Positions 4,801 through 61,111 of a DNA stretch of 64,000 nt are shown piece after piece. The notes beneath the pieces were generated by a model. The model did not search any database, was not told where the DNA came from, and saw only the letters and a program-made list of their open reading frames with translations. A program made the position numbers and the translations under genes. Source of the DNA: a virus; IMG/VR virus record IMGVR_UViG_3300024262_000026, positions 1 through 64,000 of that record; one strand, 5' to 3'. Each line of letters opens with the position of its first letter. Position 1 is the stretch's first letter.

Positions 4801-6078
4801 TGTTGCTGTATTGAAAGATGGTTCATAAGTTGAGCCATTTAGAACATAATAAGGATATGCGGTTGTTGTTATATCAAAACCAAATGTTGTTGATGTTGAA
4901 CCTGTAGTTCCATTAACATCATCAATATAAATACCGTATGTGTGTCCATTTGTATATGCACCTGTTCTTGTTCCACCACTAACTGTTAAGTTATTTAAAG
5001 GTGTTGCAATATTAGTAAAAACATTATTTGCTGAGTCAAGATATTTATTACTATATGTCAAAGCTTCTTTTAGAGTTGCGTTATAAGACATAAAATTGAT
5101 ACTTGTAAAATCTTGCCCTACAAGAACATCACCAATAATATCAAGATTTCCAAGTTTAAAATCAGCCTCAAGTAAAGCATCTTCATTATATGTGCAGAAT
5201 AATCCTGTTTTATCAGTATTATTATTAACTACATTTTTAATGTACATATCTCTATCATTTAAATCCTTAAAATAAGGAATTAATGATACATCATAAGACG
5301 CTAAAACTGTTACAGTTCTTTCATTAACAAAATTGCTAACTTGTCCTTTAATTAAACCATTTCTATTGAAGTATCTTGAAAAAGTAGTATCATTTGCCAA
5401 TGTTCTATAATCGGTCCAATCTCCTGCTATCACAACAATACTTGCAAGATAGTCTGATATCCATTCTCTATAATCTATATATGGAGGAACTTTATCACGT
5501 CCACCATACCATTCTTCTGCTGTGATGTCAAATCCACTAATGTCTGATTTGAACATAAATATAGTAATGTCTTTATCACCCATATTTGTAATATGAAATA
5601 GACGATTATTGTCCTGAACACCACCATTATTATTTTTTACGATATTTAAGAAAGCATCTGTATCTCTTTCCCAAAAATCTTGTCTATTAAAGAATAGTTC
5701 ATATGCTGTTGAATTTACTGTACTGTTTTCATATTGAGCAGATACCGAAATTGTTTGCCATTCTAACTTATCTCTATTAGGATCTGTTGATAATAGGTTT
5801 AAAGCCCAAACAGGACCTGATTTTAACATCTGTTTTACGGTTTTGTGAAAATAAGAACCTTTGTTTTCTAATCTCCTATCATCTTCACCAAAGATTGCTT
5901 CAAAATCACTTGGATTTGTAATATAAATTGGAGCGTTAAAAGGTCCTTTCTTTGAAAAACCTGGCACCAAGTTAATAAGAACATCCTGAACTGGAAGTTC
6001 TATAATACTTGCATCTATCTCTTCTATGAAAATCCCTGGTCTTTTGTATTTTCCAAGGTCTCTATCTTTTATTGGCAT
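1837..6078 (-). CDS. Tail sheath protein (T4 gp18-like), double length
   Basis: Contractile sheath subunit of the tail. The N-terminus (KRPGIFIEEID, then PGFSKKGPFNAP and FGEDD) and the C-terminal roughly 300 residues (WFPPASYAATTYMQKF, SFLHSREVLIELENRL, ADKICKEMLDGDAF) match sheath proteins. At 1413 residues it is about twice T4 gp18 (659). The extra length is a large Thr/Ser/Gly/Val-rich central insertion, roughly residues 350-980, with repeated beta-rich modules such as GTVTSYSSTTLILS and GTVTDYSLSTITLA that look like surface Ig-like or immunoglobulin-fold decorations. Such insertions sit on the outside of the sheath in other phages. A phage-type promoter motif is 23 nt upstream, and a terminator follows. 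Confidence 0.9.
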   Translation of the reverse strand: MPIKDRDLGKYKRPGIFIEEIDASIIELPVQDVLINLVPGFSKKGPFNAPIYITNPSDFEAIFGEDDRRLENKGSYFHKTVKQMLKSGPVWALNLLSTDPNRDKLEWQTISVSAQYENSTVNSTAYELFFNRQDFWERDTDAFLNIVKNNNGGVQDNNRLFHITNMGDKDITIFMFKSDISGFDITAEEWYGGRDKVPPYIDYREWISDYLASIVVIAGDWTDYRTLANDTTFSRYFNRNGLIKGQVSNFVNERTVTVLASYDVSLIPYFKDLNDRDMYIKNVVNNNTDKTGLFCTYNEDALLEADFKLGNLDIIGDVLVGQDFTSINFMSYNATLKEALTYSNKYLDSANNVFTNIATPLNNLTVSGGTRTGAYTNGHTYGIYIDDVNGTTGSTSTTFGFDITTTAYPYYVLNGSTYEPSFNTATLSSVTQTTTYATKIDVLYLTNNTTEISVLYGVEGISNVSLPTATAPNYTYSLNSTIILGYVTHIKSGSTYTAVYTPITVGDSSTVDQYGSDTKGYVPIDNFSFTSVTGTYIDNYLQMEFLGTSGMTGVYNDYNYLRNNHLFNEMDTYITTDKTVLIKDGEPFEKTSSTDTVVINGITRTGLTYTVDAGLDYVPGDVVTVRVSGTTSGVTGTVTSYSSTTLILSATTITNLDTISETGQTVVAFTPVPEVGVDFDITGLPTNLGLYSGSTVTVVNEDGDGCVGTVTDYSLSTITLAVDSYVLSGSGATGLTWTVTSSQPYQSASLWTIQLGTEGNVSFSLSDKTPITGRAVVDSTATSNALIRLNVEVPTDYISGTDSAILLYYVDNEFVLQDDNTARLKTVYQEVTQIPQVTLGGLARNVGVVGKYSTFYQNYYNGIINSDDYFWVDNNSGSTVPADDKVYLKMFIDQSSILTVDFQTYDGTVYTYKSVNDWNTNYTKQLVIYSDKSNWRQSIEIESWVGDDLTTVQQISINKTRYSEIKRGDFLEAYYDIANWQAPDGDGYLEGSVPRKFTRIIDIKNSTTDTSLKTLYTDAPIKLTDMNQLSGTSSGQSIATVDYQTFTYQSIDVYVDEYIGLKISPFLVHQDSIPNGTDSRQNSILDVLTIDNNLAKSLADKNKISWRYLVDPWGLGLQPDDGWGCKQQLVDLTGLKLNALGFINMPSAKDFRNSSNPSFVNDDGSLNLEYVRKGADESKNPDYLYQFATRHGQLDGRSTVGYFFPYVRIYDNGIPKWFPPASYAATTYMQKFVSNVAGFVPWTICAGITNGRINGITKTEIDFNNIDLENLHQMGANPIVYKLNNGYCINDESTAQVFPFSSLSFLHSREVLIELENRLYDMLLRYQWAFNTAEVRAEIKYRADKICKEMLDGDAFYDFKNVCDATNNTDYIIDLQMGVLDTYVEIIKGMGIIVNNITILKKGDIQSGGFTPQ

Positions 6079-19061: not shown

Positions 19062-19077
19062 TTTTTCATTTTATTTT

Positions 19078-22000
19078 TTAATCACATCCTTGAAATCCAC
19101 AATCTTGACATTCTTTACAACCATTTTGCCAAATAATATTTGTGCTTCCACATTCAGGACAAATTGTACCTGTAGTTTCAACAGAATCTTTTATCCATTT
19201 TTTTAAAATTCGTTTTACACCTGCTTTCCAAGTTCCAAAATTGAGTTCTTCTTCACCATTAGTTGCCATATTCATACCATCAACAATATTTAATACACTA
19301 GGTAGATGTATTCTATGTCTCAAAAATGCAGACACCATTTTAGAATAATTCCAAAATTCACGATTAAATGCTCTATTTAATCCTTGCATTGTAACCTTAT
19401 ATCCATCTCTATCCGTATATTCAAAATCATATCTTTTATGAATAACACCGTCACTATCCTTTTCTTTAATTTTAATAATAGTTCCATGTTCCACATAAAT
19501 AGGAATTTGAAACGATTCAGCCAAACCTGTAAATAACTCATATGGATATTTTTCTTTTGATATCTCATCTATACCTAAAAATGCTACCCATTTTTCTTTA
19601 TTATTAGTGAACTTTATAATTTCACATTCTAATCTTTTAGGTCTACGCTTTGCATTATTTTCTTTCATTTGTTGCTCAATACTCTTTTCATCATGAGACA
19701 CAATAACACCTTGTCGTGAACCATCACGATAGACTGTTATACCTTTACAACCTGATTTCCAACCAGTTTCATACACTTTAGAAACCATTTCTTCAGTAAC
19801 ATCATTTGGTAAATTTACAGTAACAGAAATTGAATGATCAACATATTTCTGAACTTCGCCTTGCATACGAACTTTTTCAACCCAATCAACATCATTTGAT
19901 GTCGCTTTATAATAAGGAGATTTTTTAATAATTTCTTTTAATTCGTCTTCCTTCATCTTCTTAACTTCACCAATATTATAACCATTGATTTCTAACCATG
20001 TTTCAAATTTATGGTGAAATACATTATATTCTTCCCAATGAACACCTTTATCATCAATAAAATCACTTCTAGAATCTTTATCATTAGGATTAATTTTTCT
20101 TCTTCTTTTATAAGATACTAAATATACTGGTTCTATACCTGAGGTTGTTTGTGTACAAATTGAAACTGAGCCTGTTGGTGCAATAGTTAAAAGTGCAATA
20201 TTTCTTCTACCTTTCTTTAATTTTTCATTCAACTCAGGATCATCATTTTTCAAACGACTAATAAAAGGATTATTGATTTCTTTTTCATAATCATAAACAG
20301 GGAAAGAACCTCTTTCCTCTGCCATTATTGCAGAAGATTTATAAGCATTAATCGCAAGTATTTTATGAACTTTAGTTGAAAACTCGGTTGCTGGCTTAGT
20401 ACCATACCTCAAATTAAGAGCAGCAATCATATCACCTTCAGCAGTTACACCTAACCCTGTCCTTCTACCCTTTTCTGACATTTCTTTAATTTTCAACCAT
20501 AATTCAGTTTCAGTTCTTTTAATATGTGCGGGTTCTGGATCTGTTATAATTTTTTCTAAAATTTTATCAATTTTTTCAAGTTCTAAATCAATAATATCAT
20601 CCATAAATCTTTGAGCATATTGTACATGCTCTGAAAATAATTCAAAATCAAAATATGCATCTTTTGTAAAAGGATTAACAACATATGAATATAAGTTAAT
20701 TGCCAATAAACGACAAGAATCATAAGGACATAAAGTTATTTCACCACAATTTTTCACACAAATACCACCTGATGTAATATATTTATCATCTTCAAAATTA
20801 GTAATTATATTATAGTTATGATTATCATCAACTGTTATATTATACACATCCTCATAACCATAAAATTCAATTTTCATAACTTTATGATTATTCACAACCT
20901 GATTTTTAAAATCTGCAAAAGTTTTATCATTTGAATTATCAAAATCCTTATGATGTATTGCTACATTTTTATAATCTACAAACTCATCATAATAAAATTC
21001 ATGTATCAATCTATATTGCCTTCTATTTCTAAATCTACCACCCAACATTTTCTGACCAGTTTGTGCAATTTGCCTATATCCTTTATTTGAACTAAAAGAA
21101 TAAAATGATGATATAGAATCTCCTTCTATTAAATCTTTTAACTCTTTATAAGTATTATTCTTCATATAAATTCTATGATCTGGAGTTGCTATCAACTCAG
21201 AACCATCATCTAAAGTTAACTTCCATACTTCTACATTTTTCTTAGTTTTTCTAGGATTTCTACCCCATTTAATTTCAACTTTACCTTCATTATTAGTCGA
21301 ATATACAGGCACATCTTCACCTTCTAATGCCAACTGTTTTATACTAACAGCATTTCTACCATCAGCAACAGCAATCAAAGAATCACCAACAACACACGGA
21401 TTCGTACTAATTGTCTTAAAACCATACTCTTGGTAACAATCAGGCACAGATTCTCTCATAATAGTGTCCCAAAATAATATACCAGGTTCTGCTGATTTCC
21501 AAGCATTATGAACAATTTTATCCCATATAGGTTTAGCTTCAACATCTTTTGTAAATTTTGGATTTTTTGAATCTATTGGAAAACTTTGAGTATATTTTGT
21601 ATTTTTACTAACAGCTTTCATAAAATCATCATGAATTTTTATAGATACATTTGCACCAGTTATTTTACCCTCTTGCATTTTCGCATCAATAAATCCACCT
21701 GAATCTGGATGTTTAACACTTACTGTTAACATCAATGCGCCTCTACGTCCATCTTGTGCAACTTCTTCAGTAGTATTTGAAAATCTTTCCATAAAAGGCA
21801 CTATACCTGTAGATGTTAAGGCTGAATTTTTCACTCTCATTCCCTTTGGTCTGATATGTGATAAATCATGACCAACACCACCTCTACGTTTCATTAATTG
21901 TGCTTGTTCTTGATCTGTTAAAAATATACCACCATAAGAATCAGCATCATTACCAATTACAAAACAATTAGATAATGATACCGTTTGTCTATCATTACCT

Positions 22001-49685: not shown

Positions 49686-49741
49686 ATTTCTATTTTTATT
49701 TACTTCTTTTATAAGAAAATTCTTATTTAGTTTTAATTTTT

Positions 49742-49751
49742 AATATATAAG
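49742..49751 (+). promoter_or_regulatory. Phage-type promoter-like box (AATATATAAG), 6 nt from ATG
   Basis: AATATATAAG 6 nt before the ATG at 49758, as if transcription began at or near the start codon. Confidence 0.5.
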
Positions 49752-49757
49752 TGTACT

Positions 49758-50351
49758 ATGAAGTTAATGAAGTATAAAGAGTTTTTAAATGAAAACATAT
49801 CTACAGGTATTGCACAATTATTACAAAGTGTGGATGCAGAACAGGTCGAGTTTTACTACACACTTGGCATTAATAAAGACAAATTTATTGAAAAAGATAT
49901 TGAATTTATCTATAATGATAGTGATTTTAATAAGGCACTATATAGTAAAAAACTCAAAAAGAGTGAATTAGCATCCACATTAGATATGGAAAATTTCTTA
50001 AAGAAACAATATAATATAAAATATTTTTTGTTGATTGATAGAGATATACCAAAAATTGACACACCAAAATATATAATACTTCAATACTCTAAGAAAAATC
50101 TTGGTTGGAGTGATGTATATATGTATAAAGTTAATGGTAATATTAGAAACTTTTTTGAAAAAATGACATCAAGAACTATCGAAATTGATGATGATGGAGT
50201 AAAATATGTATATCAAACATCAAACTCTGGTAATAATTGGATATTACAAAACATCGAAGATAAGACAGACGAATTTAAAGAAACATTAGAAAAAGATGAA
50301 TTGCGTGATATTTTAAAACAAAAAAACTTAGAATTGAACATAATAGAGTAA
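49758..50351 (+). CDS. Unknown 197-residue protein with capsid-targeting-like leader
   Basis: A second ATG at 49767 gives MKYKEFLNENIST, a close match to the T4 capsid-targeting sequence (MKTYQEFIAE), and is the more likely functional start. No family recognised in the rest, which is mixed alpha/beta with the segment LLIDRDIPKIDTPKYIILQYS. First gene of the leader-bearing block, so a packaged protein is plausible. Confidence 0.65.
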   Translation: MKLMKYKEFLNENISTGIAQLLQSVDAEQVEFYYTLGINKDKFIEKDIEFIYNDSDFNKALYSKKLKKSELASTLDMENFLKKQYNIKYFLLIDRDIPKIDTPKYIILQYSKKNLGWSDVYMYKVNGNIRNFFEKMTSRTIEIDDDGVKYVYQTSNSGNNWILQNIEDKTDEFKETLEKDELRDILKQKNLELNIIE

Positions 50352-50399
50352 AAAATGAAAAAATATATTAATATATACAAAAAAAGAATTTAAATAGAG

Positions 50400-50822
50400 A
50401 TGGATAAATTAAATAACTTAATATCGTTCAAAGATTTTGGTAAATTTGACATGAAAGTTGAAAATCAACCTGGTAAAAAAGTAGTTGAAAAACTAAATAA
50501 CATTAAATCATTCGATACATTAGTAGATGAAGGTTTTTTCACAGATACCGAATTAGGAAATAAGATAAGAAAAGGTGCTGGTTTTAAAAACAAAGGAGAA
50601 AAATTTGAAGAAGCTAAACAAGCCATCCTAAGTCACCCTATTAGAAGAAAAGCGTATGAAACGTTCCAAAAAGAAGATCCAAATAAAGCTGAAAAGTATG
50701 TTGAATTTTTTGTAAAAAATCCACAAGGTCACCCAAAATGGACTAATGGTGAGTGGATTGATACTGCTCGTTATTCACACGAATTACTCGCAGATGTTGG
50801 ATCACCTAAAAGTGGATATTAA
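50400..50822 (+). CDS. Unknown 140-residue protein with leader-like N-terminus
   Basis: Begins MDKLNNLISFKDFGKFDMKVEN, a looser version of the leader with SFKDF. The rest is charged and contains GAGFKNKGEKFEEAKQAI, HPIRRKAYETFQKEDPNKAEKYVEFF and a Gly/Pro-rich end. No family recognised. A terminator follows. Confidence 0.65.
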   Translation: MDKLNNLISFKDFGKFDMKVENQPGKKVVEKLNNIKSFDTLVDEGFFTDTELGNKIRKGAGFKNKGEKFEEAKQAILSHPIRRKAYETFQKEDPNKAEKYVEFFVKNPQGHPKWTNGEWIDTARYSHELLADVGSPKSGY

Positions 50823-50842
50823 TCCTGAATACCTTTATATAC

Positions 50843-50878
50843 AAAAAACTCTACCTTTTTAAGATAGAGTTTTTTTTT
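50843..50878. terminator. Bidirectional terminator
   Basis: AAAAAACTCTA / TAGAGTTTTTT stem followed by a T-run, between the 140-residue gene and the minus-strand membrane protein, whose stop codon lies at 50877. Confidence 0.8.
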
Positions 50879-51263
50879 ATCTAAACATTTTTTGTGAAAC
50901 TCCACTTCTCACATCATCAAATATAATTCTTGTGAGTTTCTGTATTTGAATTTTACTTCTTAATCTATTTGCGACTATTAAAATACTACCAGTAAGTAGT
51001 AAAGATATCACAAATAACCAAATCATATTGTGTTGTAGGAAAAATACACCAGAAAAAAGTAAAATTGTGGCAACGAGGAAAGAAATCTTCATTTTAATTG
51101 ATAATCTATCAATAATAAAATCTGTTTCAGCATTAAGTGCATCACACTGTTCAATTTCATTCATAGATTCAAGATACTTAATTTCTTCTTCAGAACATTT
51201 ATGTTTCTTTAAACCAAGTTTCTCTAATCTTGAATAAAACTTTGATACTACCATACTCTTCAT
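50877..51263 (-). CDS. Small membrane protein with two transmembrane segments
   Basis: 128 residues. Cytoplasmic N-terminal helix with CSEEEIKYLESMNEIEQC, then two membrane spans at about residues 60-78 (FLVATILLFSGVFFLQ) and 81-98 (WLFVISLLLTGSILIVA), and a basic C-terminal tail. No recognised family. Possibly a holin-like or host-membrane-modifying protein: the two short spans separated by a tight turn, and the endolysin gene about 0.8 kb away, fit a holin, but this is unproven. Confidence 0.6.
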   Translation of the reverse strand: MKSMVVSKFYSRLEKLGLKKHKCSEEEIKYLESMNEIEQCDALNAETDFIIDRLSIKMKISFLVATILLFSGVFFLQHNMIWLFVISLLLTGSILIVANRLRSKIQIQKLTRIIFDDVRSGVSQKMFR

Positions 51264-51353
51264 TTTTTAGATTTTATTTATATTATATATATTTCAAATG
51301 TAATGCAAAGATAAACTTTTTTTTTGGAAATAAAAAAGTTATGTGTGTATTTT

Positions 51354-51363
51354 TATATATAAG
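51354..51363 (+). promoter_or_regulatory. Phage-type promoter-like box (TATATATAAG)
   Basis: TATATATAAG ending 26 nt before the DeoC-like gene start. Confidence 0.4.
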
Positions 51364-51389
51364 ATATAAATTAAAAATAGTAATATAAA

Positions 51390-52076
51390 ATGACAATCAA
51401 GAAATTTAATGAATATATTAATGAGAATAATAACACAAATTACTATCAAATAATTGATTATACTAATTTAGATACTCTCTCAAATGATGATATTAAAAAA
51501 ATGTGTTCTGTTGCTGAAGAAAAAAAAGTATATTCTGTTTGTGTATTACCAGAATATGTTAGTCTTGTATCATCATTTCTTGAAAATTATGATATTAAAG
51601 TTGTTGCTACAATAGACTTTCCAAAAGGTAGTAGTTCATCCACAGAAAAGATAAAAGAAATTGATAAAGCACTTGTGAATGGTGCAGATGAAGTTGATGT
51701 TGTATTAAATTATAAACTTATAAAAGAAAAGGAATTTGAAACTATTGAAGATGAAATTAGAAGTATTTCAGAATATGTACATAAAGAAGGAAAAATTGTT
51801 AAAATTATCATTGAAATAGGTGCATTAAGTTTTCAAGAAATAGAACAAGTTAGTGAAATATGTGTTGATGCTAATGTTGATTTTATAATGACATCCACAG
51901 GAAAATTACCAAATGATGGTGACTTTGATGATAAAGTTAAAAAAGTTAAATTTATAAGAAAAATTACTCCTGACGACACTAAGATAAAATTTAGTGGAGG
52001 AATAAGAACTAACGCACAAATTGCACAAGTTGCACAATATTGTGATAGAATAGGAACAAGTATTATACCCGTCTAA
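51390..52076 (+). CDS. DeoC-like aldolase fold with leader and lost Schiff-base lysine
   Basis: 228 residues. The N-terminus MTIKKFNEYINENNN resembles the capsid-targeting leader. The rest follows deoxyribose-phosphate aldolase: ADEVDVVLNYKLI (Asp103), IIIEIGAL, VDFIMTSTGKLP and KFSGGIRT with Lys200. In DeoC the catalytic Schiff-base lysine is the third residue of F-I-K-T-S-T; here it is Met167 (FIMTST). The DNA (ttt ata atg aca tcc) is unambiguous. The enzyme is therefore probably inactive as an aldolase, or uses another lysine. It could bind a sugar phosphate or nucleotide instead. Confidence 0.82.
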   Translation: MTIKKFNEYINENNNTNYYQIIDYTNLDTLSNDDIKKMCSVAEEKKVYSVCVLPEYVSLVSSFLENYDIKVVATIDFPKGSSSSTEKIKEIDKALVNGADEVDVVLNYKLIKEKEFETIEDEIRSISEYVHKEGKIVKIIIEIGALSFQEIEQVSEICVDANVDFIMTSTGKLPNDGDFDDKVKKVKFIRKITPDDTKIKFSGGIRTNAQIAQVAQYCDRIGTSIIPV

Positions 52077-52077
52077 T

Positions 52078-52908
52078 TTATAAAGATTTTAACATTGCAA
52101 TAAGATGAGGTTGAGGTGACACATCATATTTATCAGTTCTAATATTACCATGAGACCAGATACCTGGATAACCATTTAATGTTAATGGATTATATTCAAA
52201 TGCCGATTTACCAATCGATTGTACAGCCCAAGCAGTATTATTTCCCCAAACGCCATCTTCTCCTAATGGTTTACCATTTCTACCAACAAATCCATATCTA
52301 TTCAACCATTTTTGTTGTTCCATAATAGATATTCCAGTAGGCATAACTAAAGATTCTTTTTCAATCCATTCTCTTAACCCCATTCTAAGATTAATATTGA
52401 ATTTTGATGATAAATAAAGCAATAATTCTCTAACCGACTCCACTTGTTTATCGGTATACTTATGATAATATTTGAAACCTCTAAATTGATTAGGTAATTC
52501 AATAACATCAGATTCAGGTACTATAGTGTTTACATAATTATAAAATGAGCCATCTCTACCTTTTGTTAAAGGACCATAATTACATATTTCAATACCTATC
52601 GATATTTTATCAAATGTACCTTTTGTACCTTTGGCACCTAAATGCCATGCCCATTTACTTTCAGGAAAACATCTAACAATCACACCATCCCATTCACTTT
52701 CACCATTTCTTGTACTTCTACCACCAACTATAAAAGATGTTGCAATTCGTCTAATTGAGCCATCAGAATTTGAATCTTTATCCCACATACCAACAACCCA
52801 ATCTGGTCGATGTCCACCTGCAGTATGGTGTAAATATATTATAGTTTTATTGAATTCGGTGTGATAATACTCGTCCGAATTTAAGAAAATATCTTTAATG
52901 TCTAACAT
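52078..52908 (-). CDS. N-acetylmuramoyl-L-alanine amidase (endolysin)
   Basis: Cleaves the amide between muramic acid and the stem peptide of peptidoglycan for lysis. An Amidase_2 domain fills the first about 150 residues: YLHHTAGG, then IATSFIVGG, and KWAWHLGAKG...ISIGIEICNYG (zinc ligands His near 28 and His near 98). The C-terminal about 90 residues have a cell-wall-binding-like segment (QKWLNRYGFVGRNGKPLGEDGVWGNNTAWAVQ). It converges with the DeoC-like gene, the two stops separated by a single base. Confidence 0.88.
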   Translation of the reverse strand: MLDIKDIFLNSDEYYHTEFNKTIIYLHHTAGGHRPDWVVGMWDKDSNSDGSIRRIATSFIVGGRSTRNGESEWDGVIVRCFPESKWAWHLGAKGTKGTFDKISIGIEICNYGPLTKGRDGSFYNYVNTIVPESDVIELPNQFRGFKYYHKYTDKQVESVRELLLYLSSKFNINLRMGLREWIEKESLVMPTGISIMEQQKWLNRYGFVGRNGKPLGEDGVWGNNTAWAVQSIGKSAFEYNPLTLNGYPGIWSHGNIRTDKYDVSPQPHLIAMLKSL

Positions 52909-52917
52909 AATATTTTA

Positions 52918-54207
52918 TTATTTTTCTTTCGTGTCATTTGTGTTACTATATAATGTTTCTTTTTGTTTTTTTATCTCAGATTTTTCTTCTAAATCCAATT
53001 CACTTTCAACATCATACAATTTAGTTAATTCAATATCTCTTTTATTGTAATGTTCAGTTTCAAAAATAGAACCCAAGTTAGTTTCTCTCCTAACACTATT
53101 TTCCATTTTATAAACTTCACCTAAATTGATATCTTTTTTTAATTTACTATCAACATTATAAACACTACCTTCAGCCAATTTAGGTTTATTTTCAGGATCA
53201 TTATTATAAAGGATTTTATCTGTTATTGTATTTAAATTCTCTTTATCATTATCATATAATGAGGGATTATTTAAAGTAGGTTTCTTATAATCTATGATGT
53301 TATCATAAACAAAATCATTAACAGTTAAGGTTTTATTGCTTTCTTTATTTTCAAATAACTGCTCTCCATTTAATAATTTATCTTCATCTTTATTCTCAAA
53401 TAGTTGTTCTCCATTTAATAATTTATCTTCATCTTTATTCTCAAATAGTTGTTCTCCATTTAATAATTTATCTTCATCTTTATTCTCAAATAGTTGTTCT
53501 CCATTTAATAATTTATCTTCATCTTTATTCTCAAATAGTTGTTCTCCATTTAATAATTTATCTTTGTCAACATTTTCGAATAAGACTCCTTCCATTTTTC
53601 GGTCATAATCAATATTTTCATAAATAATTTCACCATCTAATAATTTATCTTCATCTTTATTCTCAAATAGTTGTTCTCCATTTAAAAGGTGCTCATTATC
53701 TTCATTCACATAAACAATTTCACCATCTAATAATTTATCTTCATCATTATTTTCAAATAGTTGCTCTCCATTTAAAAGGTGCTCATTATCTTCATTCACA
53801 AAGACAAACTCACCATCTAATGTATTATTAACACCAACACCATCAAATAATGTCTCACCATCTAATGTATTATTAACACCAACACCATCAAACAATGTCT
53901 CACCATCTAATGTATTATTAACACCAACACCATTAAATAATGTTTCATCGTTTAATGTATTATTATCTACAACATTATTATTATATAAAGGTGTTCCAAT
54001 TGGATATGATTTTCGGTTTCTTTCTGTAGTATCAATCTGATCAATATATTCCATTCCTGGGATATTTGGTTCATAATCTTCAACTTGAATAGTATTATTA
54101 TCTACAACATTATTATCATATAATTGTGCACCTCCAGGAGTTTTATTCAAATCTCTTCCGTGATTATTAGGAACAATTTTATCTATTACTGGATCCACTC
54201 CACCCAT
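52918..54207 (-). CDS. Repeat protein with 15-residue (45-bp) repeats, possible fibre or adhesin
   Basis: 429 residues built of short beta-strand-like repeats. The central part has near-identical 15-residue units LLNGEQLFENKDEDK and LDGETLFDGVGVNNT. The flanking parts have looser units ending in LYDN, VYxxD, or similar. Such arrays usually form elongated beta-solenoids or fibres. It ends just after the endolysin gene start region and overlaps the next gene by one nucleotide. The 45-bp DNA repeats are nearly identical, suggesting recent expansion. A tail-fibre or spike role is plausible but unproven. Confidence 0.65.
   Translation of the reverse strand: MGGVDPVIDKIVPNNHGRDLNKTPGGAQLYDNNVVDNNTIQVEDYEPNIPGMEYIDQIDTTERNRKSYPIGTPLYNNNVVDNNTLNDETLFNGVGVNNTLDGETLFDGVGVNNTLDGETLFDGVGVNNTLDGEFVFVNEDNEHLLNGEQLFENNDEDKLLDGEIVYVNEDNEHLLNGEQLFENKDEDKLLDGEIIYENIDYDRKMEGVLFENVDKDKLLNGEQLFENKDEDKLLNGEQLFENKDEDKLLNGEQLFENKDEDKLLNGEQLFENKDEDKLLNGEQLFENKESNKTLTVNDFVYDNIIDYKKPTLNNPSLYDNDKENLNTITDKILYNNDPENKPKLAEGSVYNVDSKLKKDINLGEVYKMENSVRRETNLGSIFETEHYNKRDIELTKLYDVESELDLEEKSEIKKQKETLYSNTNDTKEK
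53363..53565 (-). repeat. 45-bp tandem repeats, four perfect copies plus a partial one
   Basis: Copies at 53363-53407, 53408-53452, 53453-53497, 53498-53542 are identical, with a partial fifth at 53543-53563. They encode LLNGEQLFENKDEDK-type units within the repeat protein. More diverged copies follow at about 53630-53780. Confidence 0.9.
53811..53945 (-). repeat. Second set of 45-bp tandem repeats
   Basis: Three copies (53811-53855, 53856-53900 and a diverged 53901-53945) encoding LDGETLFDGVGVNNT-type units in the same protein. Confidence 0.85.
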
Positions 54208-54653
54208 TATTTCTTATTTCTTTTTTTAATCATCTCTTGAATATATTGATCCTTAGGTAAACTAATATCAGGGGCACTCTTCATACGTTGAGTTTCTTCC
54301 TCACCTATATAAATACCTTCAACTTCTTCAATTTCTTTAATTATATTTGCAAGATGCTCATCAATAGTTAATTTTTCCTCATTTTTATCATATAGTATTG
54401 TGTAAAGTTTCTCATCATTAAATATAAAATATTCTCTTTCAGATAGTGTAAAGTCCTGATAAAAAGACAATTTACCAATATTACCATATTTTAATATTTG
54501 CTTACCAAACATTGAAAAATATTTTATAATAAATGGATCCTTTATTGAAAATGCCTCAGTTTTTTGATCAAACATACTATCGCCAAGATCCAATTCAAAT
54601 ATATCTAACATTTTTACTTTATTTAATACAACACCATTTGCAATTACTTTCAT
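54207..54653 (-). CDS. Unknown 148-residue protein
   Basis: Overlaps the repeat protein start by one base. Contains KVKMLDIFELDLGDSMF and an acidic C-terminus with KSAPDISLPKDQYIQEMIKKRNKK. No family recognised. Its position between two structural-type genes suggests a virion component. Confidence 0.6.
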   Translation of the reverse strand: MKVIANGVVLNKVKMLDIFELDLGDSMFDQKTEAFSIKDPFIIKYFSMFGKQILKYGNIGKLSFYQDFTLSEREYFIFNDEKLYTILYDKNEEKLTIDEHLANIIKEIEEVEGIYIGEEETQRMKSAPDISLPKDQYIQEMIKKRNKK

Positions 54654-55102
54654 ACATCATGAATATTATCTTTTAAATCAACATCCTCTTGTTCTTCTTC
54701 ATCAGATTTATCCAGTTCTGATATTTTATCAATAATAAAATCTTCTTTTACATCTTCAACATCAATTTCTTCGACTAATTCTCGTTCTAATTGTTGCGTT
54801 TCATTATCTGTATATTTCTTAATTTTCAAATGCACTTTATCAATCTCATTATCGTCTGTAAATTCATCTACTCTAACGATAAACATAATTTGAAAATAAT
54901 TCTCTGGTGATAAAAATTCAACCATTTGATATTTTTGCATAGGGTTCATTATTTCGTTATTAGTTATTTGAACTAACTGACAACCTGAAGCACCAAGAGA
55001 GCCTCCATCAAACCACTTTTTTACTTGTACTTCTAGTTCCTTAAAGAACACAGATATAATATAATCGGCTGATTCTACATATTCTTCAAATATTTTCTTC
55101 AT
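54650..55102 (-). CDS. Unknown 150-residue protein with leader-like start
   Basis: Start chosen at the ATG at 55102 (MKKIFEEYVESADYI), which matches the leader pattern and lies after the promoter box, rather than the longer frame starting at 55147, which would cover that box. The middle has QVKKWFDGGSLGASGCQLVQI and the C-terminus is very acidic (EEEQEDVDLKDN). It overlaps the next gene by 4 nt. Confidence 0.65.
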   Translation of the reverse strand: MKKIFEEYVESADYIISVFFKELEVQVKKWFDGGSLGASGCQLVQITNNEIMNPMQKYQMVEFLSPENYFQIMFIVRVDEFTDDNEIDKVHLKIKKYTDNETQQLERELVEEIDVEDVKEDFIIDKISELDKSDEEEQEDVDLKDNIHDV

Positions 55103-55122
55103 CAAATTGAGATTCTTTTTAA

Positions 55123-55132
55123 CTATATATAA
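55123..55132 (-). promoter_or_regulatory. Phage-type promoter-like box (TTATATATAG)
   Basis: Minus-strand TTATATATAG 20 nt upstream of the preferred start at 55102. Confidence 0.35.
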
Positions 55133-55151
55133 AAAATTACTTTTCAATCCG

Positions 55152-55161
55152 AATATATAAG
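55152..55161 (+). promoter_or_regulatory. Phage-type promoter-like box (AATATATAAG), 3 nt from ATG
   Basis: AATATATAAG 3 nt before the ATG at 55165, again suggesting a very short or absent 5' leader. Confidence 0.45.
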
Positions 55162-55164
55162 TGT

Positions 55165-55416
55165 ATGATAACTAATTTTAAATTATTTATAGAGAGCGTT
55201 GAAGTAACACCTAACAACACTTCTGGTTCGGCTGGTGATACATCATCAACAAGAGATCAAGGTGGTTACCTAGTGTCTGGAAATGATGGAAATCCTGGTA
55301 TTCAATTTACACCAAAAGGTGTTGACGACATAAGCAAGTCTTATAAGGATAAAAAACGAAAATATAAAAGATATTTTAGGAAAAATAAAAAATATAAAGA
55401 TGAAAAACATAAATAG
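55165..55416 (+). CDS. Small basic protein with capsid-targeting-like leader, paralog 1
   Basis: 83 residues. Leader MITNFKLFIESVEVTP, then a Ser/Thr/Gly-rich middle and a strongly basic C-terminus (KDKKRKYKRYFRKNKKYKDEKHK). The layout parallels the protein at 56278 (MIKNFKLFIEDATAT, Gly/Ser-rich middle, RKKKKKKKDLKKK end). A DNA-associated internal virion protein is plausible. The next gene starts inside its end (17-nt overlap). Confidence 0.7.
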   Translation: MITNFKLFIESVEVTPNNTSGSAGDTSSTRDQGGYLVSGNDGNPGIQFTPKGVDDISKSYKDKKRKYKRYFRKNKKYKDEKHK

Positions 55417-56281
55417 ATTTATTCAAAAATCTAACGAATTATTTAAATATAAATATGATTATTCACTAGTTGAATATAAAAATAATAAAATAAAAGTTAA
55501 AATAATTTGTCCAATACATGGTATATTTGAAAAATCACCAAATAAACACTTATTAGGTCAAGGTTGCCAAAAATGTGCATTAGAAAATTCATCAAAAAAA
55601 CAAAGATCAAATAATAAAGAATTTATTAAAAAATCACTAAATATACACAACAATAAATATAACTACTCACTAGTTAATTATAAAAACAGTAAAACAAAAG
55701 TTAAAATAATTTGTCCAGAACATGGTATATTTGAACAAACACCAACAAAACATTTAAAAGGTTGTGGTTGTCCTAATTGTGCTAACAACGTAAAATTGTC
55801 TAATAGTGAATTTATAAAAAGATCAAATAAAATACATAATGGTAAATATGATTATTCATTAGTTCAATATGAAAATAATAGAACAAAAGTTAAAATAATT
55901 TGTCCAGAGCATGGAACATTTAAGCAAATACCAACAAACCATTTAAGAGGTAAAGGTTGTAATAAATGTAAAATAAATTCTATAGGAGAAGAAACTATAA
56001 AAAATATATTAAAAGATAAAAATATAAATTTCATACATCAAAAAACTTTTGACGATTGTAAAAATAAATTGAAATTACCATTTGATTTTTATATTTATGA
56101 TTTAAATATGTGTATAGAATATGATGGTAGGCAACATTTTAACATAAACACTAAATTTTATTCAGAAGATATTAAAATTAATGATAATATTAAAAATAAA
56201 TATTGTAAATTAAACAATATTAAATTATTAAGAATAAAATTTGATGAAAATATTAAAGAAAAACTAATACAACATTTATGA
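55400..56281 (+). CDS. Vsr-like homing endonuclease with three CPxHGxF zinc-ribbon repeats
   Basis: Three copies of a zinc-ribbon repeat (CPIHGIFEKSPNKHLLGQGCQKC at about 35-58; similar at about 95-120 and 155-178), each preceded by KYDYSLVxYKNNKTKVKII. The C-terminal part (IGEETIKNILKDK, then FDFYIYDLNMCIEYDGRQHF and LNNIKLLRIKFDE) matches the PD-(D/E)xK Vsr-like nuclease fold seen in free-standing homing endonucleases, with DF...EYDGRQH as the catalytic region. It sits between two paralogous leader genes, as if inserted at their junction. Confidence 0.8.
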   Translation: MKNINRFIQKSNELFKYKYDYSLVEYKNNKIKVKIICPIHGIFEKSPNKHLLGQGCQKCALENSSKKQRSNNKEFIKKSLNIHNNKYNYSLVNYKNSKTKVKIICPEHGIFEQTPTKHLKGCGCPNCANNVKLSNSEFIKRSNKIHNGKYDYSLVQYENNRTKVKIICPEHGTFKQIPTNHLRGKGCNKCKINSIGEETIKNILKDKNINFIHQKTFDDCKNKLKLPFDFYIYDLNMCIEYDGRQHFNINTKFYSEDIKINDNIKNKYCKLNNIKLLRIKFDENIKEKLIQHL

Positions 56282-56583
56282 TAAAAAATTTTAAATTATT
56301 TATAGAAGATGCCACAGCAACAATGGGCAATATGAACGGAATGGGTAACGTCACTTCTGCAATTCCAAGTGAAACTCCAGGTTCAGTTTCAGATTCTATA
56401 CCAGGTTCTGGTGATATTGGACAAATATTAGGAACACACACCAAAAAATCAACTTTAGATTTAAGAAAGAAAAAGAAAAAGAAAAAAGATTTAAAGAAAA
56501 AAGAAAACTTTTCTCACGAACAAGATAAAACATATGACCAAATGTATGTGGTTAGATTTGGTGACTATAAATATACTAAATAA
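56278..56583 (+). CDS. Small basic protein with capsid-targeting-like leader, paralog 2
   Basis: 101 residues. Leader MIKNFKLFIEDATATMG, then Gly/Ser/Met-rich segment, then basic RKKKKKKKDLKKKENF and a short C-terminal part (YVVRFGDYKYTK). Same plan as the protein at 55165. Overlaps the endonuclease end (ATGA). Confidence 0.7.
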   Translation: MIKNFKLFIEDATATMGNMNGMGNVTSAIPSETPGSVSDSIPGSGDIGQILGTHTKKSTLDLRKKKKKKKDLKKKENFSHEQDKTYDQMYVVRFGDYKYTK

Positions 56584-56584
56584 T

Positions 56585-57229
56585 ATGCTAACATACGAAA
56601 ATTACATTAATTCAGAATTAGAATATGAAGATGGATTTCTAATAGATAAATACGGATCAGTAATAATGAGTATTTATGAAGAACCAATAATGAAAGTTGC
56701 GGCAGAAATTGTTGCTAACAAAGGTGGTGATATTTTAAATGTTGGTTTTGGATTAGGTATAATAGATCATTTCATACAATTAAAAAACCCTACATCTCAC
56801 ACAATTATCGAACCACACAAACAATTATTCAAAGAAGCAATAGAAAATGGTTGGGATAAAAATGTTGAAATGTTAAATGAAAGTTGGTTAGAATCTGTTG
56901 ATAGATTTATTAAAGAAGGTAAAAAATTTGACGGAATATATTTTGATCCTTTTCTGTATGAACAATATAACTCAACTCTAGATAAATTTTTAAAAAAATT
57001 AAAATATATCTTAAAAGAAGATGGAGTTTTCTCATATTTTATGAACCACAACAGTACCAGTAGTGTACAACAAAATGTCAATAATTTTGCTGGGGAAGAT
57101 ATCTATAATGTAAATTTGATCAATTTAAATATTGAATATGATGATAGAAAACTCAAAAAAAGAAATGGATATACAATACAAAAAGAACACTATATTCCAG
57201 TAGTTAGATTCAAAAAAATCATAAAATAA
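56585..57229 (+). CDS. SAM-dependent methyltransferase (RMT2/GAMT-like) with leader
   Basis: 214 residues from ATG at 56585 (MLTYENYINSELEYEDG), which resembles the common leader; a longer frame starting upstream overlaps the previous gene and is less likely. The SAM-binding region ILNVGFGLGIIDHFIQ and HTIIEPHKQLFKEAIENGW, then FDGIYFDPF, match arginine/guanidino N-methyltransferases (RMT2, GAMT family). The substrate is unknown. A virion-packaged methyltransferase is suggested by the leader. Confidence 0.75.
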   Translation: MLTYENYINSELEYEDGFLIDKYGSVIMSIYEEPIMKVAAEIVANKGGDILNVGFGLGIIDHFIQLKNPTSHTIIEPHKQLFKEAIENGWDKNVEMLNESWLESVDRFIKEGKKFDGIYFDPFLYEQYNSTLDKFLKKLKYILKEDGVFSYFMNHNSTSSVQQNVNNFAGEDIYNVNLINLNIEYDDRKLKKRNGYTIQKEHYIPVVRFKKIIK

Positions 57230-57252
57230 TTTTTTTATAATGTTTTTATTTA

Positions 57253-57260
57253 TACTTTTG
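57253..57260 (+). promoter_or_regulatory. Host-like Bacteroidota -7 box (TACTTTTG)
   Basis: TACTTTTG 29 nt before the BRCT gene. Confidence 0.6.
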
Positions 57261-57289
57261 CGATAAGTATAACCATAAAATATAAAAAC

Positions 57290-57601
57290 ATGCCAGAATT
57301 TAAAGATAAAATTACATTTGAAATGACAGGTTCACCCAAATTTCAAGGATGGTCATATAAACAAGATTTTGTTGATTTTATGACAAAACACGGATTCACA
57401 CACACAACACTCACAAAAAATACCGACTTGCTGGTTACGGATGACGATTCATCAAATACAGGTAAAATGGGTAAAGCGAAAAAATATGGTATACCTATAG
57501 TAACTTATGCCGAACTAGCAAAGGATAAAACTAAACTTTATACTAAATTGACAAGGAGAAACAGAATGGCACACATTATGAAACTAATGGGGGAACTGTA
57601 A
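57290..57601 (+). CDS. Stand-alone BRCT-domain protein
   Basis: 103 residues, essentially a single BRCT domain: FEMTGSPKFQGWSYKQDFVDFMTKHGF, LTKNTDLLVTDD, KMGKAKKYGIPIVTYAEL. BRCT domains of this kind are found in NAD-dependent DNA ligases and bind DNA ends or phosphorylated proteins; a free version may assist a phage or host ligase or repair enzyme. Expressed from a host-like promoter, followed by a terminator. Confidence 0.85.
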   Translation: MPEFKDKITFEMTGSPKFQGWSYKQDFVDFMTKHGFTHTTLTKNTDLLVTDDDSSNTGKMGKAKKYGIPIVTYAELAKDKTKLYTKLTRRNRMAHIMKLMGEL

Positions 57602-57624
57602 ACTTATCTCAACTAAATATATAT

Positions 57625-57657
57625 AAAACTCCTATCTAAACAGATAGGAGTTTTTTT
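57625..57657 (+). terminator. Rho-independent terminator
   Basis: AAAACTCCTATCT / AGATAGGAGTTTT with loop AAAC and a T-run, after the BRCT gene. Confidence 0.85.
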
Positions 57658-57691
57658 ATAAATAAGACTCAACAAATAAAATACATATAAT

Positions 57692-58690
57692 ATGGACCCA
57701 AATAAAAATTATTATAATATATTAGATGTAGATAAGAATTCTACTGATGCTGACATCAAAAAATCATATAGAAAAAAGGCAAACGAAACCCATCCCGATA
57801 AGCAAGGCGGGGATGATAAAAAATTTAAAGAAATTAATGAAGCTTATCAAGTTTTAGGTGATAAACAAAAGAAAACTAGATATGATTCGCAAAGTCCTCA
57901 CGGAAAAAATTTCACAGGAGGGGGATTTGGTAATTTTGGGGGGTTTAGTTTCAATCACGATCCTTTTTCAGCATTTGAACAATTTTTTAGGGGAGGCTTT
58001 CAACACCAAACACAACGACAACAGCGGGAAGATTTCCAAGAAGATTTGGATATTGTCGCAAATATGAATGTTGATCTGAAAAGAATATATGAAAATAAAC
58101 CCATCACAATTAAATATAAGAAAAGAGCAAAATGTTCAAGTTGTAAAGCCACAGGGTTTGATAGAAATAGTGAATCTTTTGGTTGTGAAGTTTGTGATGG
58201 TAAAGGTAAAGATCTTTATGGCTTTAGATGTGAATCTTGTTTAGGTGAAGGTAAAATATACTCTGGAACCTGTAAAGTGTGTAATGGTGAAAAAGTTATT
58301 CTTACTGAACAAGAAATTGTTTTAGAAAAAACATATACCATCAGAAACTCAACAAAGAACATTAATAGAGGTTTTGGACATCATTCGAAATATTATAGAG
58401 AAAAGGTCGGCTCATTGATAGTTAATATCAATTTTGTTAAAGATGAAAACTATGAAATTAAGAATTATAACCTTCATCACACAAAAAATATTCACTTTCA
58501 AGACGCTATCGAAGGTAAAGAAATAATATATACTCATGTGGATAAATCTCAAATAAAAATAAAACTACCTGAGAAAACTAATGAAGGCGAACTTATCAGA
58601 TTAAAAGATAAAGGTTTACTCAAAGACGACAACACAAGAGGAGATCTATACATAAAGGTTAATATAACAATAGATTATGATAGACTTTGA
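57692..58690 (+). CDS. DnaJ-like co-chaperone
   Basis: J domain with HPD (His34-Asp36) at the start, a Gly/Phe-rich linker (GGGFGNFGGF), four CxxCxxxG-type zinc finger repeats (CSSCKATG, CEVCDGKG, CESCLGEG, CKVCNGEK) and a C-terminal peptide-binding domain ending in LKDKGLLKDDNTRGDLYI. 332 residues is slightly shorter than bacterial DnaJ (about 375). It recruits Hsp70 to fold or assemble proteins. The last zinc repeat ends in GEK instead of the usual GxG, so the finger may be slightly altered. Confidence 0.92.
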   Translation: MDPNKNYYNILDVDKNSTDADIKKSYRKKANETHPDKQGGDDKKFKEINEAYQVLGDKQKKTRYDSQSPHGKNFTGGGFGNFGGFSFNHDPFSAFEQFFRGGFQHQTQRQQREDFQEDLDIVANMNVDLKRIYENKPITIKYKKRAKCSSCKATGFDRNSESFGCEVCDGKGKDLYGFRCESCLGEGKIYSGTCKVCNGEKVILTEQEIVLEKTYTIRNSTKNINRGFGHHSKYYREKVGSLIVNINFVKDENYEIKNYNLHHTKNIHFQDAIEGKEIIYTHVDKSQIKIKLPEKTNEGELIRLKDKGLLKDDNTRGDLYIKVNITIDYDRL

Positions 58691-58973
58691 AAATAATTTT
58701 TATTTTTACTCAGAAGAAAAATCAAAATTGAAATTTTATTCTGATGAATTTGAAAAATTGCTTTCTAGATGTGGAATAATATTAGAAAATATTGAATTAG
58801 ATAAGGAAACTGGTGATATTTATTGTTATGTTGATGGTATCAATTATGATAAACTAAATTGTCAAAAATTTGATGAAATATTAAAAAATAATGTCCCATA
58901 CATATTAGACATATTTCTGGAACATGATTATTTTATATTAACATTTAATGTAAAAAATATTGAATTATCCTAA
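58677..58973 (+). CDS. Unknown 98-residue protein
   Basis: Overlaps the DnaJ gene by 14 nt, so it is co-expressed with it. Acidic alpha/beta protein (MIDFENNFYFYSEEKSKLKFYSDEFEKLLSRCG). No family recognised. Confidence 0.6.
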   Translation: MIDFENNFYFYSEEKSKLKFYSDEFEKLLSRCGIILENIELDKETGDIYCYVDGINYDKLNCQKFDEILKNNVPYILDIFLEHDYFILTFNVKNIELS

Positions 58974-59243
58974 TTCATCTAATTCGTCTCTAAGTTCCTT
59001 CAATTCAACATTAAAATTATCTATCATATAGCCTAATATATTTTGTTGAAAAATTTCAGTTGTTAATTTGCCTTCCTTTAACTCTATCTCAACTTCTTGA
59101 GCCCCTATCTTTGGATCAATAAAAACTGTTGAAACTTTAAAAGATTTACCATCTCTGATTCGTTCTAATTGTAAAATTGTATTTTCCAATTCGTTTATTC
59201 TTTCAAATAATGCTGCGGCTTGTTGAGCAATATCTATTCTCAT
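58965..59243 (-). CDS. Unknown 92-residue coiled-coil protein
   Basis: Starts MRIDIAQQAAALFERINELENTILQLERIRDG, with heptad-like leucines, then a beta-type middle (FKVSTVFIDPKIGAQEVEIELKEGK) and a helical end. It converges with the previous gene and overlaps it by 9 nt. No family recognised. Confidence 0.6.
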   Translation of the reverse strand: MRIDIAQQAAALFERINELENTILQLERIRDGKSFKVSTVFIDPKIGAQEVEIELKEGKLTTEIFQQNILGYMIDNFNVELKELRDELDELG

Positions 59244-59258
59244 TATAATTCTTTTTTC

Positions 59259-59268
59259 TTTATATATT
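59259..59268 (-). promoter_or_regulatory. Phage-type promoter-like box (AATATATAAA)
   Basis: Minus-strand AATATATAAAG 15 nt before the 92-residue gene. Confidence 0.4.
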
Positions 59269-59291
59269 AATAGAATGTTGCTTCCTTGATT

Positions 59292-59870
59292 TTACTCGTT
59301 TCTCTTCTTAATACCTTCAGCCTTTTTAATCAATTCACGGACTTCAGCACTCGCCAATTTCTCCCAAGTCGATTTCAATATTTTCAATTTAGGTTCTTCC
59401 CAAACACAAGTTTGTTTTTGACTTTTAATTGATTTGATAACTTCCGTAGGTTTTTCATCAAATTCCCAAACAAGATAGTAATCACTTTCAACATCAAATT
59501 TAACTTTATCAGATTTGGTTAACTTAATATTAAATTTCATAATATATTTAGAAACTGTATCAGAAACTTTCTCTTCATTCTTTTTACTAAACTTTAGTCC
59601 AACTTTATATGCTCTTTTCTTTAAAACATTCTCTGAATAATCCATTGCCAAAACTTCATTATAATCAAGTTTATAATCTTTATCAGAAACTTCAAATATT
59701 ACAGCACTTGGTAATCCATCTTTATATTCAAAATGTAAATTTCTTGTTTTATCAAACATCTCAGATGCAATTTTTTTAGCATCTCTTTCAATTTCATTCT
59801 TTGCTTTATTAGCACCTTCTGGTTCTTTCTTTTCATTTAAAAATTGAGTAAATTTATATAACTTTTTCAT
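59292..59870 (-). CDS. Unknown 192-residue protein with capsid-targeting-like leader
   Basis: Leader MKKLYKFTQFLNEKKEPEG. The rest is charged and alpha/beta with DYYLVWEFDEKPTEVIKSIK and a C-terminal segment LKSTWEKLASAEVRELIKKAEG. No family recognised. It lies immediately downstream of PPK2 in the same orientation, 16 nt after its stop, so the two may be packaged together. Confidence 0.65.
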   Translation of the reverse strand: MKKLYKFTQFLNEKKEPEGANKAKNEIERDAKKIASEMFDKTRNLHFEYKDGLPSAVIFEVSDKDYKLDYNEVLAMDYSENVLKKRAYKVGLKFSKKNEEKVSDTVSKYIMKFNIKLTKSDKVKFDVESDYYLVWEFDEKPTEVIKSIKSQKQTCVWEEPKLKILKSTWEKLASAEVRELIKKAEGIKKRNE

Positions 59871-59886
59871 AATTTATTTTTATTTT

Positions 59887-61050
59887 TTAAACCTTATAAA
59901 CCTTTGATTTATAAGGTTTAATTATATCTTGGTTTTTATCTGGATAAGGTATTACAGATAATATATATCTAATACCATTTAACTGTCCTAATTTTTTATC
60001 ATTCATATCAACAACCACCCAAGGTGCAATATCCGTTGATGTTTTAGCAAACATTTGTTCTTTATAAAATGTAAATCTATCATATCTATCAACAGCCTTA
60101 GCATCGCTTGGACTAAACTTCCACCATTTTATTGGACTCGCTTGCCTTAAAGCAAATCTATATTCTTGTGTTTCTTTTTCAATTGAAAACCAAAATTTTA
60201 TAAGAGTAACACCACCATCAATTATTTTTTCTTCAAATGGTACAACATCTTCAATAAATTTCTTATACTGATCCTCTGTACAAAATCCATTAACAGGGTC
60301 ATTAACTGCTCTGTTATAATAACTTCTATCAAAAAATGTTAAATGTCCTTTAGGCGGCAAAACATCCTCATATCTATCAAACCAATGTTGTTGATCATAT
60401 TGTGTTGGAATACCAAACCATTCATGATCAACAATTTTCTCATTTGTAAAACCTTCAATTAATTTTATAAAAGAACCTTTACCAGCGGAATCTCTACCGT
60501 CACAAGTTACTAATACTCTCATACCAGAATCTTTAATGTATTCTGTCATTTTAACCAACTCAATTGAAAGAGCATCCAGTTCACTTTTAAAAATTTCTTT
60601 AGAAATTTTTCTTTGAGTTTTTGTTTTTTTCTTTAGTTCTTTTACCTTTTTAAATTTATCTTTAACATCCGATTTTGAGAAATCTTGATCTATCTTATCA
60701 AATATTCTTGGTAAATCAGATATATAACCTTTAAAATATTTGATAGCAGAGTCTTTACCATCTATTTTATTCTTTATTGTTAATGCTTTAAAAAATGAAT
60801 CTAACTCCAATAATCTATATAAGTTGTCTCCAAATTTACGGTGGGCATCATTTTTAATTTTAATTGGATCTGAATTTTTCTCAAAATCACTAAAAAATTT
60901 ATCAATAGTATTAACTATTTGTTCATCATCTAAATCACTATTAGCACTATCATAATTAACTGAGAATTCTGGATACGATGATGTTGATGTATAATAAGAT
61001 GGTTTATCTATCTTATACTCTAAAAATGGTTGAAATTTCTTAATACTCAC
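59887..61050 (-). CDS. Polyphosphate kinase 2 (PPK2) with leader and N-terminal extension
   Basis: Transfers phosphate between polyphosphate and nucleotides. Walker A is CDGRDSAGKGS (Gly185-Ser193), followed by the PPK2 lid and DRSYYNRA (241-248). The catalytic core needs about 240 residues; here it starts near residue 150. The first about 145 residues, beginning MSIKKFQPFLEYK (a leader-like start; GTG start codon), are an extension with helical segments. Could regenerate NTPs or dNTPs from host polyphosphate during infection, or act from within the virion. A phage-type promoter motif is 17 nt upstream. Confidence 0.88.
   Translation of the reverse strand: MSIKKFQPFLEYKIDKPSYYTSTSSYPEFSVNYDSANSDLDDEQIVNTIDKFFSDFEKNSDPIKIKNDAHRKFGDNLYRLLELDSFFKALTIKNKIDGKDSAIKYFKGYISDLPRIFDKIDQDFSKSDVKDKFKKVKELKKKTKTQRKISKEIFKSELDALSIELVKMTEYIKDSGMRVLVTCDGRDSAGKGSFIKLIEGFTNEKIVDHEWFGIPTQYDQQHWFDRYEDVLPPKGHLTFFDRSYYNRAVNDPVNGFCTEDQYKKFIEDVVPFEEKIIDGGVTLIKFWFSIEKETQEYRFALRQASPIKWWKFSPSDAKAVDRYDRFTFYKEQMFAKTSTDIAPWVVVDMNDKKLGQLNGIRYILSVIPYPDKNQDIIKPYKSKVYKV
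59889..59919. repeat. Inverted repeat at the 3' end of the PPK2 gene
   Basis: Perfect 12-bp arms AAACCTTATAAA / TTTATAAGGTTT with a 7-nt loop, overlapping the last codons of PPK2. No T-run follows on the minus strand, so it is not a standard terminator, but it could form a hairpin that protects the mRNA or blocks read-through into the next gene. Confidence 0.7.
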
Positions 61051-61067: not shown

Positions 61068-61077
61068 ATTATATATA
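61068..61077 (-). promoter_or_regulatory. Phage-type promoter-like box (TATATATAAT)
   Basis: Minus-strand TATATATAAT 17 nt before the PPK2 start. Confidence 0.35.
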
Positions 61078-61111
61078 AAAAATGAAAATTAAAAAACAAA
61101 CCAGAAAAAAC

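Follow-up and report, generated by a model that had tools for sequence, protein, structure and literature searches.

The internal proteins IPI-IPIII of phage T4, together with Alt, carry on otherwise unrelated bodies an N-terminal leader of 10-13 amino acids with the form aromatic-xx-aromatic-[IL]-x-E. Genetic work on T4 IPIII indicated that ten residues suffice for the leader, that residues 4 and 7 (Tyr and Phe) serve mainly in targeting while residues 8 and 10 (Ile and Glu) serve in processing, and that Asp at position 10 blocks processing with targeting kept (PMC9026906). At least 10 internal proteins have been reported in T-even relatives, and T-even internal proteins were recognised earlier by their capsid-targeting signal (PMC12373910). 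Ejection proteins of the SPN3US/phiKZ type likewise have N-terminal propeptides that are removed by the prohead protease, but those propeptides are mostly 100+ residues long and follow another consensus (PMC5694885). Here we describe leaders of the T4 form on proteins encoded in a 64,000-nucleotide stretch of DNA (the window), which is bases 1-64,000 of a linear virus record of 73,024 bp (IMG/VR record IMGVR_UViG_3300024262_000026). We consider it very probable that these leaders are T4-type capsid-targeting sequences; the proteins bearing them most likely reach the prohead by way of the scaffold, and would then be cut and delivered with the DNA.

The huge phages compared here resemble T4 in the gp21-type protease of the complete relatives, in the probable late-type expression of one of these, and in that some of their leader proteins are small and basic. 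They differ from T4 in scale, with 84 of 1,019 open reading frames (ORFs) bearing the leader in one huge-phage genome, enzymes included, as against three internal proteins and Alt, and also in having a protease-fused scaffold with repeats of the leader core. In the literature on capsid-targeting sequences, represented mainly by titles and abstracts, we found neither huge phages nor scaffold repeats described as bearing the leader, and no mention of prohead or injection was found in a huge-phage paper (PMC7162821). An earlier note on this DNA had proposed that leaders of this kind mark a polyphosphate kinase (PPK2), a methyltransferase and a DeoC-like protein for packaging and injection; that idea is partly supported, in that its core, the likeness to T4 capsid targeting, is right, and its scale was understated.

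The record is probably one piece of a far larger huge-phage genome, because its tail sheath protein best matches the sheaths of complete huge-phage genomes. The closest matches among complete genomes are LR756501/LR756503 (735 kb), at 49% identity across 89% of its length, followed by three huge-phage genomes of 635-642 kb, and there are weaker matches in Lak phages, Flavobacterium phage MaF61, Tenacibaculum PTm1 and Sphingomonas phage PAU. Our reference relatives are LR756501, taken as a whole genome, and LR745206, of which about half of the genome was covered.

The leader and its match to T4

Each of the nine leaders listed in the earlier note was found at its position with minor corrections to the start codons (Table 1). 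The ORF at 49758 opens with MKLMKYKEFLNEN, and the ATG chosen before (49767) is its second start; the leaders at 55102 and 56585 begin at in-frame start codons within longer mechanical ORFs; and the start codon of PPK2 is GTG. A further leader, MRIRKFIEYLQEN (71065-71520), and two looser ones, MKYIRTFEENK and MEIMKFENFNEK, are encoded in the final 9 kb of the record. A short N-terminal leader is common to otherwise unrelated proteins, and in LR756501 it is the sole common part of 83 proteins.

Leaders were scored with a position matrix trained solely on LR756501 N-termini, with no window sequence used. The 84 leader ORFs that it finds in LR756501 compare with 1.6 expected at the threshold applied there. 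At 10 bits or more, five of the 90 record proteins pass, where protein interiors predict 0.06 and the maximum in 300 shuffles was 2, and two more of the listed leaders (1772 and 56585) pass when read from alternative starts. Taken singly, the leaders of PPK2, 55165 and 55102 score below 3 bits, since they lack the tenth-position E that the matrix requires; those of PPK2 and 55102 are backed by homologues. A simple pattern, [FY]xx[FY][ILV]x[EDSN], gives a similar picture: it is found at 8 of the 90 record N-termini, where shuffling predicts 0.85, and is 9.4-fold more frequent there than in protein interiors (P=1.3e-5), with two of these eight N-termini not being true leaders. The thought that composition or codon effects at Lys/Asn/Phe-rich, AT-rich gene starts merely mimic a leader, which a genome of ~28% GC invites, has next to no probability in our estimate and is ruled out as the cause by the shuffles and interiors, which fail to yield the motif; moreover, cellular PPK2 proteins lack it (see below), and the codons within leaders vary, so that selection acts on the protein. 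The leaders are real and are not an artefact of composition.

Conservation between phages points the same way. The leader is on both members of five window/LR756501 orthologue pairs (DeoC, PPK2, 49758, 59870 and 55102) whose bodies are only 26-43% identical. The LR756501 orthologue of the 49758 protein (476705) has the leader MRIKGYNKFVKED and a viral homologue has MIKKYSQYIKES; the orthologues of the DeoC-like and 59870 proteins begin with MVKNFDKFVREA and MDILRKYRHFINEA, respectively; and the 55102 protein has an orthologue with MKMFEEFMQAD as well as a relative in a neighbour genome (L002) with MKKLFEEYVESADY. Between LR756501 and LR745206, both members carry the leader in 4 of 95 reciprocal pairs (P=0.0013).

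When the same matrix was run over 283 T4 ORFs, 61.1, ipIII and ipII came out on top (20.2, 16.7 and 16.6 bits) and the next scored 7.4. The T4 protein gp61.1 (54 amino acids, MKTFKEFIKED; T4 18966-19130), which outscores IPII and IPIII, is possibly an overlooked T4 internal protein. The matrix columns matching T4 positions 4, 7, 8 and 10 are [YF], [FY], [ILV] and E, and the three most informative columns are both aromatics and the E. Among the ten canonical leaders of the record, the aromatic pair is kept in all ten, and the processing pair ([IL] at position 8 with E at position 10) is present at 49758, 51390, 59870, 1772 and 71520. The motif form ending in E that the earlier note had given fits about half of its own examples and not the remainder, and the cleavage at [LI]-x-E that it had expected is predicted for five of the ten leaders, with PPK2 and the methyltransferase lacking the E. 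The leader at 56278 has at position 10 an Asp, the residue that T4 tolerates for targeting. For leaders ending in IES, IED or VES, an alternative cut may fall after the E of [FY]-x-E.

Prohead protease, capsid protein and scaffold repeats

The complete relatives LR756501 and LR745206 both encode a gp21-family (S77) protease and a gp23-like capsid protein adjoining the portal. The gp23-like capsid propeptide of these relatives ends in [LIMV]-N-E-N, an ending that aligns close to the region of T4 gp23 that holds its FLTE-A cleavage site. Of 52 additional head-module loci, almost every one whose capsid N-terminus could be read shows this propeptide ending.

The protease-fused scaffold of LR756501 has [FY]xx[FY][ILV]xE in 14 copies, mostly 14 residues apart, where 0.16 would be expected, and that of LR745206 contains 11. 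Nine to 16 copies of the leader core (YSEYIAE), as a rule spaced by 14 residues, are found in the scaffold of 50 of the 52 independent loci; in the other two, the contig starts too close to the capsid gene. The consensus of 645 scaffold units is [NS]-I-x-Y-S-E-Y-[IL]-A-E-N-[LV]-D-K, which the T4 leader KTYQEFIAE closely resembles. Repetition of the leader core in a protease-fused scaffold is new here and suggests how the leader may dock. In the simplest reading, the leader would be one scaffold repeat on its own, able to dock into the scaffold, and the many-copy motif would offer a direct, testable answer to the question of T4 leader docking in the prohead.

Further evidence comes from the small basic protein at 56278, in which the leader is followed by a copy of the N-terminal arm of the major capsid protein (HMM match, E=9.5e-13) and a polybasic tail. 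The same arrangement is common to this protein, to its orthologue in the neighbour genome (L002 16219) and to LR756501 730457, with E=3e-13 to 1e-12 for the capsid arm. In all three the capsid homology begins just past the leader, where the mature capsid protein starts, and the small basic protein also matches the capsid protein in its cleavage motif. This junction is independent support for the leader ending at the predicted protease site.

We weighed two other explanations against these data. The leader could be merely an extended prohead-protease site on the propeptides of structural proteins, with the scaffold repeats as cleavage sites for clearing the scaffold, and it is true that the E and the [ILV] are conserved in both leader and scaffold and that T4 gp22 is likewise cut at many sites (PMC5694885). 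Yet the most conserved part of both leader and scaffold is the aromatic pair, which in T4 genetics serves targeting and not processing, leaders without the cleavage E retain this pair, and the PPK2, CoaE-like and DeoC-like candidate cargo have no structural folds, so we regard this explanation as improbable. Less probable still is that the leader acts as a short amphipathic helix that sends proteins elsewhere, to a phage compartment or membrane. Short helices of aromatic and hydrophobic residues at an N-terminus are able to bind membranes or shells, but such a role fits poorly with the match to T4 IPII and IPIII, the identity with the scaffold repeats, the agreement of the cleavage site with that of the capsid protein, and the fusion to a capsid arm. 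The capsid-targeting reading is strongly supported by independent tests: the T4 matches, the T4-critical residues, the protease and capsid sites of the relatives and the scaffold repeats.

From these sequences we infer that leader proteins are present in the virion, cleaved and injected. Newly made leader proteins would be taken up while the prohead assembles, their leader being a copy of one scaffold repeat, with the docking repeat being the Y-x-x-Y-[IL]-x-E unit present in 9-16 copies in the scaffold fused to the gp21-like protease. A protease cut after [LIMV]-x-E would then trim leader, scaffold and capsid propeptide, freeing the cargo inside the head, and the cargo would enter the cell along with the DNA at infection. 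The leaders that lack the tenth-position E (56278, 55165, 55102, 56585 and PPK2) would be targeted and either cut elsewhere or left uncut. With less confidence, though still on the favourable side, we propose a general scheme in which huge phages load many proteins in this way, about 80 candidates in the 735-kb phage, PPK2 included; the scaffold would be a rod with its 9-16 docking copies, and cleavage at the same motif would both release the cargo and dismantle the scaffold.

Candidate cargo and a late-type promoter motif

PPK2 is the best-supported cargo candidate. The window protein has the PF03976 domain with its Walker A motif (GRDSAGKG) and DRS motif present, its orthologues in LR756501 and LR745206 also bear the leader, and the leader is found on 23 of 52 distinct viral PPK2 proteins as against none of 79 cellular ones (P=1.4e-11). 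If it is delivered as proposed, PPK2 could draw on host polyphosphate to make nucleotides ahead of phage gene expression.

The DeoC-like protein has a DeoC domain by sequence and a full leader, but calling it an active aldolase would be unwarranted, because the Schiff-base lysine of F[IV]KTSTG is absent, the window protein having FIMTSTG with Met in its place. Seven close viral relatives have Ser at this position (YISTSTG), and LR756501 retains FVKTSTG; a subclade of phage DeoC-like proteins are probably not aldolases. The methyltransferase is the weakest candidate, with no Pfam or PHROG match for the 56585 protein, whose name is that given in the earlier note. Other leader proteins of LR756501 have CoaE-like, methyltransferase, radical-SAM and nucleotidyltransferase domains, and PADLOC and PHROG scans of leader proteins returned few functional hints, mostly weak. 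Since the leader tag matches the head-loading tag of T4, huge phages may carry dozens of ready-made proteins in with their DNA and so arrive with enzymes already made, and the leader would make it possible to read from sequence alone which proteins uncultured huge phages probably inject.

In LR756501, a late-type promoter motif, T[TA]ATATATA, precedes 31 of the 36 leader genes with a free gap on their upstream side, compared with 115 of 325 others (P=3.7e-9). It also stands before the portal, protease-scaffold and sheath genes, and before only one of eight replication-type genes with a free gap. The T4 late promoter TATAAATA is not enriched before leader genes, whereas T[TA]ATATATA is.

Several observations weigh against the capsid-targeting reading. 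The cleavage E is absent from five of the ten leaders (55102, 55165, 56278, 56585 and PPK2), and neither gp21 nor gp23 was found in the 73-kb record, which is a fragment. The closest relatives of the window DeoC-like protein (56% identical) lack a canonical leader. In the window, T[TA]ATATATA is not significantly richer before leader genes (4 of 7) than before others (12 of 33), because many tail genes are also preceded by the motif. An AlphaFold model of the scaffold gave long helices at low confidence (mean pLDDT 54.7), which for that reason lend weak support. Finally, the leader is absent from the head region of RaK2, a T4-related jumbo phage whose virion has been analysed by mass spectrometry and which was therefore dropped as a proteomic test case.

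Features of the window and other phages

The features discussed above are collected in Table 1. The gene at 55400-56281, probably of the homing-endonuclease type (the name is inferred), separates two small leader genes (55165-56583), and the LR756501 orthologue 730457 is likewise followed by a homing-endonuclease type gene (730708). The ORF at 1620-1772 adjoins the tail sheath gene, and its C-terminus, LSQFDEFFKEK, is also leader-like.

Table 1. Leader genes, promoter-like motifs and neighbouring features of the window
Feature	Position	Strand	Leader	Remarks
50-aa Cys-rich ORF	1620-1772	-	MKDFLEFINE, then E	22.4 bits
Tail sheath	1837-6078	-	none	places the phage among huge phages
Late-promoter-like T[TA]ATATATA	49741-49749	+		17 nt before 49758; consensus match only
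197-aa protein	49758-50351	+	MKLMKYKEFLNE, then N (DNA 49758-49796)	matrix 15.5 bits
Late-promoter-like T[TA]ATATATA	51353-51361	+		37 nt before DeoC; consensus match only
DeoC-like protein	51390-52076	+	MTIKKFNEYINE, then N (DNA 51390-51428)	Pfam DeoC 1.1e-9; matrix 24.1 bits
150-aa protein	54650-55102	-	MKKIFEEYVES (DNA 55070-55102)	homologues
Late-promoter-like T[TA]ATATATA	55124-55132	-		30 nt before 55102; consensus match only
83-aa protein	55165-55416	+	MITNFKLFIES	Gly/Ser-rich middle, polybasic tail
293-aa protein, putative homing-endonuclease type insertion	55400-56281	+		five related genes in LR756501
101-aa protein	56278-56583	+	MIKNFKLFIED (DNA 56278-56310)	capsid N-arm copy 56317-56427; polybasic tail
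Methyltransferase-like protein	56585-57229	+	MLTYENYINSE (DNA 56585-56617)	matrix 15.0 bits
192-aa protein, downstream of PPK2	59292-59870	-	MKKLYKFTQFLNE, then K (DNA 59832-59870)	matrix 19.4 bits
PPK2	59887-61050	-	MSIKKFQPFLEY (DNA 61015-61050)	Pfam PPK2 6.8e-62
Late-promoter-like T[TA]ATATATA	61070-61078	-		28 nt before PPK2; consensus match only

A second leader class, MK[YH][LI]Kx[FY], is carried by at least 30 proteins in the half of the LR745206 genome that was covered, and 14 of these have [LIVMF]-N-E within residues 7-30, a motif found in 1.5% of interior windows. In one of the four LR756501/LR745206 pairs with leaders on both members, the same protein has a different leader class in each phage. 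Sphingomonas phage PAU, a cultivated phage, is similar in having a short N-terminal leader on ~20 proteins, many of them in the head-gene cluster adjoining the portal, protease and capsid genes, but its leader follows another consensus (MKTLTxLYExxLNE). Inspected by eye, PAU and PTm1 had no clear tandem leader-like scaffold repeats.

LR756501 has a second, shorter gp21-like (S77) match (L022, 11386-11787), perhaps a paralogue that has diverged, like the one reported in SPN3US, and contig G002 has a 150-aa S77-like ORF that is a possible protease. Three related leader proteins of ~350 aa lie in tandem upstream of the head module at LR756501 62965-66169 (L025:2965-6169). In the window, a 429-aa protein with many tandem repeats (NGEQLFENKDEDKLL) is encoded at 52918-54207, flanked by leader genes.

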